Source of the DNA: Parapedobacter defluvii
GTDB lineage: Bacteria; Bacteroidota; Bacteroidia; Sphingobacteriales; Sphingobacteriaceae
Reading direction: 5' to 3'
Assembly (NCBI RefSeq): GCF_014642075.1
Contig: NZ_BMIK01000026.1
Location: forward strand, 1-54,516
DNA length: 54,516 bases
The notes beneath the pieces were generated by a model, which made no database searches, was not told the origin of the DNA, and saw only the letters and a list, made by a program, of their open reading frames with translations. Position 1 is the first letter of the stretch, and the number at the start of each line of letters is the position of its first letter. The translations under genes were made by a program, and so were the position numbers. This document shows, one piece after another, positions 13,010-28,729 of this stretch.

Positions 13010-13033
13010 GTACGTTTTGATGGTAAGATTTGT

Positions 13034-13104
13034 GTTCCCGAAGGGATTCGAACCCCTATCTTCAGAACCGGAATCTGAAATTCTATCCATTGAACTACGG
13101 GAAC
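13034..13104 (-). tRNA. tRNA-Arg (anticodon CCG)
   Basis: On the minus strand the sequence folds as a tRNA. The acceptor stem pairs GTTCCCG with CGGGAAC, the anticodon stem TCAGA with TCTGA encloses TTCCGGT with anticodon CCG (codon CGG), and the T arm carries GGTTCGAATCC. CCA is not encoded; the next base (discriminator, 13033) is A. A consensus -7 promoter box lies at 13112-13119 and a terminator at 12977-13009. Its 3' end faces the mobile element and its integrase, so it is the likely attachment gene. Confidence 0.95.
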
Positions 13105-15686: not shown

Positions 15687-15834
15687 TGCCTCAGGTTTCT
15701 TTTTTGACCACTTTAAGATTCATTTAACAAATCTTAACATTTTCGTTGTAACAAAACCACATCTTGGTGCGTTATATAAGCAGTTAATAAAAAATTGTCT
15801 TTTCATAATTTAGGTTTATAATTGGTTAGTTTGA

Positions 15835-15863
15835 AAGCCCCGATTCTCCCCGTTTCGGGGCTT
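15835..15863. terminator. GC-rich hairpin between DUF1801 and META genes
   Basis: AAGCCCCGA (15835-15843) and TCGGGGCTT (15855-15863) form a perfect 9-bp stem with an 11-base loop. It lacks a clean T tract on either strand, although the plus side continues CGCTTTACG. It may be a terminator for the upstream gene or a structured leader of the META gene, which starts 97 bases later. Confidence 0.4.
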
Positions 15864-15959
15864 CGCTTTACGTTATTTGCTGAACAAAAAGTATAGCAGC
15901 CAAGCGAAAGAAAGTGAGTATTTTTGAGTAAGTTTACCTATAATATGTTAAATAAAGTT

Positions 15960-16475: not shown

Positions 16476-16506
16476 TTTGAGAGATTGGGTTTTTTCAGTA
16501 TCTTCG
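16476..16506 (+). promoter_or_regulatory. Promoter of small RNA copy 1
   Basis: TTTG (16476-16479), a 19-base spacer, and TATCTTCG (16499-16506) match the Bacteroidota -33/-7 promoter (TTTG, TAnnTTTG) with one difference in the -7 box. The block conserved with copy 2 begins four bases downstream, where transcription is expected to start. Confidence 0.65.
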
Positions 16507-16509
16507 TCT

Positions 16510-16574
16510 TAGGTTTAGGTTGATAGCCCCTAACCCCATTGGGGCGGCCCGTTATCTTAGGTAACGGGTTTTTT
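16510..16574 (+). ncRNA. Small RNA gene, copy 1
   Basis: A roughly 65-nt unit. Its first 38 bases (16510-16547, starting TAGGTTTAGGTTGATAGCCC) are identical to 28655-28692 and contain a short hairpin CCCC-ATT-GGGG (or GCCCC/GGGGC). A 9-bp terminator stem CCCGTTATC/GGTAACGGG (16548-16556/16560-16568, loop TTA) and a T6 tract follow. A promoter sits immediately upstream. The unit contains no ORF. It precedes the LLM oxidoreductase gene (start 16666), but its terminator separates it, so it looks like an independent RNA or an attenuated leader. I do not recognise the family. Confidence 0.6.
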
Positions 16575-16665
16575 GTTTGGCGGCCAAAGAATATAACCGG
16601 GCCTGATAACCAAATGCGTGATGGGCTGAAGCAGGATGATAATTATTACCTTTGTAAAACGATTT

Positions 16666-28618: not shown

Positions 28619-28651
28619 TTTGGTAAATAATGACAAATATATTTATATTCG
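28619..28651 (+). promoter_or_regulatory. Promoter of small RNA copy 2
   Basis: TTTG (28619-28622), a 21-base spacer and TATATTCG (28644-28651) resemble the -33/-7 promoter. As in copy 1, the conserved RNA block begins four bases after the -7 box, although the sequence between the boxes is quite different in the two copies. Confidence 0.6.
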
Positions 28652-28654
28652 CAG

Positions 28655-28729
28655 TAGGTTTAGGTTGATAGCCCCTAACCCCATTGGGGCGGATTCCCGT
28701 TATCTACAAGGTAACGGGTTTCTTTTTTT
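28655..28729 (+). ncRNA. Small RNA gene, copy 2
   Basis: The first 38 bases (28655-28692) are identical to copy 1 at 16510-16547. Three extra bases (ATT) follow, then the terminator stem CCCGTTATC/GGTAACGGG (28696-28704/28710-28718) with a different loop (TACAA instead of TTA) and the T-rich tail TTTCTTTTTTT. The stem is kept while the loop and flanks vary, as expected for a functional terminator. It lies between the AraC gene and a convergent lipoprotein gene, so it cannot be a leader of a plus-strand gene here. This favours a free-standing RNA. Confidence 0.65.

Follow-up and report, generated by a model that had tools for sequence, protein, structure and literature searches.

A multicopy family of putative small RNAs with one conserved 5′ head and several promoter classes in Parapedobacter

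A family of conserved, transcription-unit-like elements almost certainly exists in Parapedobacter, and an intact copy of about 72 nt is composed of a promoter, an open head UAGGUUUAGGUUGAUA, a GCCCC/GGGGC hairpin and a private terminator. Judging from its sequence, the family probably represents a predicted, intrinsically terminated, trans-acting small RNA (sRNA) with a putative 5′ seed, placed under several sigma factors. It is apparently an undescribed sRNA family with an unusual diversity of promoters. The features that would be new are the three promoter classes, the presence of one head on unrelated bodies, and the sigma-54 copies, nearly all of which keep their locus between species.

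Copies in the window and distribution of the family

Two copies lie in the window, that is, the whole stretch of 54,516 nucleotides of Parapedobacter defluvii DNA that was analysed. Its features, including a copy of a second element named family B, are as follows.

15723..15870, + strand: family B copy with head UAGGUUUAUAAUUGGUUAG and its own terminator-like hairpin, about 700 nt upstream of copy 1
16476..16506, + strand: copy 1 promoter of the housekeeping (sigma-ABfr) type (sequence and promoter-like scan; class common to 33 of 64 copies)
16510..16525, + strand: copy 1 head UAGGUUUAGGUUGAUA, proposed seed (unpaired in the fold; letters 2-16 invariant in 60 of 64 distinct copies)
16526..16545, + strand: copy 1 hairpin GCCCC-UAACCCCAUU-GGGGC (fold; helix 1 paired in 100% of cells)
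16546..16575, + strand: copy 1 intrinsic terminator (stem 16546-16570) and T tract (terminator scan; the terminator helix covaries among copies)
28619..28651, + strand: copy 2 promoter (sequence and promoter-like scan)
28655..28670, + strand: copy 2 head, same letters as copy 1 (sequence and fold)
28671..28690, + strand: copy 2 hairpin (fold)
28696..28728, + strand: copy 2 intrinsic terminator (stem 28696-28718) and T tract (terminator scan)

The 38-nt block TAGGTTTAGGTTGATAGCCCCTAACCCCATTGGGGCGG at 16510-16547 and 28655-28692 is identical in both copies, as claimed in the preliminary description, and three bases separate it from the -7 box in each, which agrees with the stated start at the fourth base after the box. 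The flanks and terminator loops had been said to differ and indeed do so, the loop of the copy 2 terminator being unlike that of copy 1. The promoter of copy 1 consists of TTTG (16476-16479), a 19-nt spacer and the -7 box TATCTTCG (16499-16506), and that of copy 2 of TTTG (28619-28622), a 21-nt spacer and the -7 box TATATTCG (28644-28651); the copy 1 transcript is predicted to start at 16510 or one base further. By a simple scan, each intergenic stretch holds one promoter-like and one terminator-like site, while shuffled sequences average 0.3-0.4 per kind. Both copies are predicted to fold into an open head followed by the GCCCC/GGGGC hairpin and the terminator hairpin, with energies of -24.3 (copy 1) and -27.4 kcal/mol (copy 2); since the shuffle z-scores are -1.86 and -2.69, respectively, folding energy by itself is modest evidence only. 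Copy 1 has a same-locus partner in P. indicus, and copy 2 has none among the loci compared. A tRNA gene at 13033-13104 (- strand) is the sole Rfam match within the window.

The label "two-copy" is true of the window only, because a search of the P. defluvii genome (5.80 Mb) with bases 1-21 of the block, allowing at most 3 mismatches, gives eight matches and none for the reversed control. All eight are preceded by a promoter-like element and followed by a hairpin and a T tract; their terminators belong to one of three stem types, their adjoining ORFs differ, and the hairpin of one copy (L004) has an additional C and, at the corresponding position, an additional G. A covariance model built from these eight copies (R1) gives 84 matches at E ≤ 0.01, which are not all full copies, since decayed ones and different bodies behind the same head are among them. 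They fall in 10 of 60 genomes: all nine of Parapedobacter, one of 28 others of the family and none of 23 from other families. P. defluvii has 10 of these matches, its eight congeners have 2, 4, 8, 8, 8, 14, 17 and 12, and one weak match lies in genome G022. When a large genome collection was scanned for an exact 19-mer, 52 stretches were retrieved, all named Parapedobacter and from 8 species. The Parapedobacter set used below comprises 84 head-bearing units that are distinct between -40 and +60 (those too close to the end of a locus being left out), 64 of which have the GCCCC hairpin.

Among these 64 copies the head is exact in 54 and differs in the first base only in six (five C, one A); the remaining variants are one with a GCGG start, two with GAAG ends and one with a C start and GTTGTTA. 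This invariance is partly built in, as some copies were fetched by exact match, and the range of variation is seen in the matches found by the model only (L091, L094, L095, L330 and L336) and in decayed copies. The variable first base would fit a transcript start at the next A. Every head position is unpaired in 88-100% of the 64 folds. The alignment, which was fitted to the model, has 61 distinct rows, across which hairpin 1 hardly varies and the terminator helix has changes on both sides in eight of nine pairs; cells of this helix are paired in 95.7%, compared with 85.6% in shuffles, and five measures exceed all 500 shuffles. Conserved columns are confined to the region from about -50 through the T tract, with almost no information outside. 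The original proposal of a short and independent RNA that has a promoter and a terminator to itself is supported as a prediction by the 64 copies, by promoter elements at fixed spacing and by covarying terminator stems.

The 16-nt head alone reaches further. With up to one mismatch it is found in 192 of 301 genomes and 13 of 25 genera of the Sphingobacteriaceae, and the nine Parapedobacter genomes have 87 such matches versus 2 for the reversed control; outside this genus single matches may be due to chance, and genus g14 is close to the control level. Many of the outside loci that were read have no sRNA-like setting, and others clearly have one. The anticipated presence of many copies across the Sphingobacteriaceae therefore holds for the head, which extends through the family on other bodies, but not for the GCCCC-hairpin body, which was found only in Parapedobacter. 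Beyond the family, the exact head occurs in three of 285 class genomes of other families, and none of the five sites has a promoter and a terminator by eye. No exact 21-mer was found in 2.9 million viral contigs, none of their 39 matches to the 16-mer head is in an sRNA-like context by eye, and the plasmids searched hold no copy. Against Rfam 15 (4227 families) there was no match at the gathering score, the best weak one being RybB with 15.3 bits versus a cut-off of 40, and the judgement that this is not a recognised family stands. No paper on the sRNA family was found in the open-licence literature that was searched.

Promoter classes and bodies joined to the head

Three classes of promoter, named by their resemblance to described elements, precede the 64 distinct copies: a housekeeping class (TANN[TA]TNG ending at -3 to -5) in 33, a sigma-54 class (GG-N10-GC with its C at -11 to -13; -24/-12) in 14 and an ECF-like class (CGTT at -11 or -12) in 12. 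At least one element at the fixed spacing is carried by 58 of the 64; one copy (L091) has both a housekeeping and a sigma-54 element, and the six copies without any class are mostly near-misses by eye. The numbers expected are 1.3, 0.5 and 1.4 from shuffled sequences and 0.9, 1.5 and 1.2 from shifted places in the same upstream DNA, respectively, although the observed counts are not independent, as the copies descend from one another by duplication. The sigma-ABfr signal has been given as TAnnTTTG and TTTG (PMC7366714, available part), and the accessible text on transcript mapping in Flavobacterium psychrophilum assigns a CGT box to ECF sigma factors and the -24/-12 element to sigma-54 (PMC9723704). 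The sigma-54 gene (rpoN, PF04552) is present in 58 of the 60 genomes.

The same head is kept in other Parapedobacter units in which the hairpin behind it is wholly different. These are the S2 units (n = 5, all with a CGTT promoter), the S3 units (n = 5, four with CGTT), the 3′UTR of efp (n = 4) and the 3′UTR of a DUF4397 gene (n = 3). The 21 CGTT promoters, namely the 12 above, the five of S2 and the four of S3, have A.AAYAA in common about 13 bases before CGTT. The identity of efp comes from EF-P domains detected by Pfam at one locus only (L140), and a GDYxERVK C-terminus with a stop within 80 nt upstream of the head is found at 16 loci in five genera. DUF4397 was identified by Pfam at L190, and its head site is present in seven of the nine Parapedobacter genomes. 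None of the three promoter kinds occurs before the heads of the efp and DUF4397 3′UTRs, and their head RNAs would be released by processing.

The head as a putative seed, and its alternatives

In the proposed mechanism, each copy would be transcribed as a free RNA, the head would pair as a seed with mRNAs near the translation start and lower their translation, the hairpin and terminator would protect the RNA, and several sigma regulons together with efp expression would feed one target set. The best guess of seed pairing comes by analogy with FopS, in which an open invariant 5′ end is likewise joined to an exchangeable body and for which pairing of the seed near the start codon was demonstrated by experiment in Bacteroides (PMC11697453, in the text available). 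As the seed is constant and the promoters are varied, several sigma regulons and efp expression may converge on the same targets. A broader scheme, held tentatively and with somewhat less than even confidence, is that one seed of 15-16 nt, held constant throughout the Sphingobacteriaceae, on at least five bodies (the GCCCC hairpin, an A5/T5 hairpin, a AAGAAAGG body and the efp and DUF4397 3′UTRs) and behind three promoter types would form a hub on which unrelated signals and EF-P expression converge, with a parallel network of UAGGUUUAUAAUUGGUUAG RNAs that is carried by phages too.

Searches for targets gave negative or weak results, with one lone candidate. Matches to CAACCTAAAC in the 25 nt preceding an ATG are not enriched in the nine Parapedobacter genomes: there are 62, sRNA copies included, versus 94 for the reversed control. 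Among 21 such complement sites that were inspected, four lie shortly upstream of an ORF start (L203, ParE-like; L211; L269; L271) and none is repeated; at L271 an ORF start lies before the complement site. One repeated site, CAACCTAAACTTTATG or TTATG in seven of the nine genomes, was rejected as a target, as it is the DUF4397 3′UTR read on the opposite strand and thus another family member. In the P. defluvii genome the 13-mer complement with up to one mismatch has 26 matches versus 11 for the control. Twelve of them are family members, and one of the other 14 precedes an ORF. This candidate (L386:1501-1513) is complementary to the head over 13 nt without a mismatch. It stands 48 nt upstream of the first ATG in the frame of a DUF5686/carboxypeptidase-regulatory-like protein and perhaps about 140 nt upstream of the likely start of that protein. 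Start regions of SusC genes, whose mRNAs count among FopS targets, gave a signal in 30 genes (P = 0.017) that did not recur in 50 genes (P = 0.26) or in the 20 new ones (P = 0.58).

The alternative that survives best, though an unlikely one, is that the head is a protein-binding site or a decoy for a regulator, with the copies setting the dose as in Csr/Rsm-type RNAs, and not an antisense seed. The invariance of the head, its tolerance to exchange of the whole body and the lack of a complementary target class in the above searches would all suit such a site, and the head of family B opens with the same octamer, UAGGUUUA, as expected of a site shared by one protein. However, the head is linear and 15-16 nt long and has no short motif repeated within a hairpin loop, and FopS, which has the same layout, uses its open 5′ part as an mRNA seed (PMC11697453, available text). 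Nor does the RRM protein RbpB, tried as a partner and rejected, help this explanation, since PF00076 is found in only one of the nine Parapedobacter genomes, in a 633-aa frame. As a side observation, RRM proteins occur in one of 11 head-rich genomes of the family (at least three head matches; the same 633-aa frame) and in nine of 14 head-poor ones, small RRM proteins in none of the 11, and thus RRM presence and head-richness tend to exclude each other; nine of the 11 belong to one genus, and the contrast is given as an observation, not as a test.

Slightly less probable still is a view of the housekeeping copies as, for the most part, a selfish repeat, or one dispersed passively, that carries a promoter and a terminator by chance, with only the sigma-54 and 3′UTR copies being functional. 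By flank comparison, flanks are in common with a copy in another species for 12 of 13 sigma-54 copies, 5 of 12 CGTT copies and 9 of 39 remaining copies; the copies that accordingly lack a same-locus partner number 30 of 39 in the housekeeping or unclassified group and 7 of 12 in the ECF-like one, versus 1 of 13 in the sigma-54 class. Under a stricter, gene-based locus test 61 of the 84 units are singletons, and one housekeeping group of six holds two copies each from two species, so that repeats in common, rather than loci in common, may explain this grouping. The occurrence of family B downstream of 10 of the 64 copies, as if the two had moved together, points the same way, as do four decayed copies (L101, L105, L107 and L337), in which the head is broken and the hairpin and terminator are still recognisable. 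Since most housekeeping copies are at unshared loci and decayed copies exist, these copies do turn over, and the initial statement that this is not a mobile repeat has to be put less strongly. Against a passive repeat, dispersed copies retain both promoter and terminator, the terminators covary, conservation stops at the transcription unit, and the viral contigs (by exact 21-mer) and plasmids contain none. It is very improbable that the unit acts in cis on the gene downstream, as a leader or attenuator, or that it encodes a small peptide: flanking predicted ORFs are both co-directional in 17 of 64 copies and a frame with a TTG start can be read by eye in some copies, from the head on into the terminator, but the neighbours differ, the downstream ORF faces the RNA with the upstream one co-directional in 16 of 64, copy 2 sits between convergent genes, hairpin-length changes of 2 to 4 bases and a freely changing terminator break a frame, and the terminator ends the unit.

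Related systems and family B

Among known systems, the trans-acting sRNA preferred here is most readily likened to FopS, the likeness being one of layout. FopS (with GibS) has 14 copies in B. thetaiotaomicron and 12-15 in the relatives named, is about 65-70 nt long, and begins with an open, conserved 5′ region, after which comes a terminator hairpin; its 3′ part is varied, and one member is derived from a 3′UTR (PMC11697453, available part). The Parapedobacter family is likewise multicopy, with an open 5′ region, a terminator and a length of about 72 nt, but has an additional GC hairpin between head and terminator. The FopS promoters described in that part of the paper are all of the sigma-ABfr type, whereas this type accounts for 33 of the 64 Parapedobacter copies, beside 14 sigma-54 and 12 ECF-like ones; FopS is also tied there to the RRM protein RbpB, a type missing in eight of the nine Parapedobacter genomes. 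The same text states that the FopS structure was deposited in Rfam; the search of Rfam 15, a release that may not include it, gave no FopS match.

Sibling sRNAs under different control, such as LhrC, Qrr and OmrA/B, are known from other phyla. The Parapedobacter RNAs resemble them in being paralogous with a common pairing region, and differ in that one identical 16-nt head is placed on at least five bodies and behind three promoter types, with 3′UTRs included. Rfp18 of Flavobacterium is an sRNA of the same phylum and is similarly conserved in its genus, but in the available text it is strongly structured, has its pairing region in the third stem-loop and is not described as multicopy (PMC9723704). 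REP-type repeats share with the family a short, dispersed, intergenic unit with a palindrome, but here the conserved unit spans promoter to terminator and its head is invariant and unpaired (PMC12306157, as far as available).

The usual explanation for paralogous sRNAs is dosage or a divergence of their seeds. In the Parapedobacter family the putative seed is constant and the promoter class changes. Differential sigma control is mentioned for FopS as a possibility only and was not seen there (PMC11697453, accessible text). If true, this would be a clean natural example of several sigma factors being integrated through a single RNA output. It would likewise open a route to finding regulatory RNAs in this family, a group of soil bacteria for which the literature searched describes none of this kind.

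Family B is a second multicopy, sRNA-like and dispersed element, unrelated in appearance, in which the head UAGGUUUAUAAUUGGUUAG is followed by a terminator. It has no Rfam match. Each of the nine Parapedobacter genomes holds 6-17 matches (control, 0), and 27 of the 60 genomes have it overall. Its upstream sequence resembles the 3′ terminus of a tRNA or tmRNA (L350-L357), yet ARAGORN detected neither gene in the nine loci examined. Where family B lies downstream of the sRNA and in the same orientation (L039, L052, L053, L056, L066, L067, L069, L070, L029 and L336), the distance is 172-181 nt in nine cases and 280 nt in one; no sigma-54 copy out of 13 is followed by it. The order is reversed in genus g16, where family B lies about 180 nt upstream of the sRNA. 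The exact 19-mer of family B is also present in 34 viral stretches, and nearly all of the 20 that were viewed have a terminator-like hairpin.
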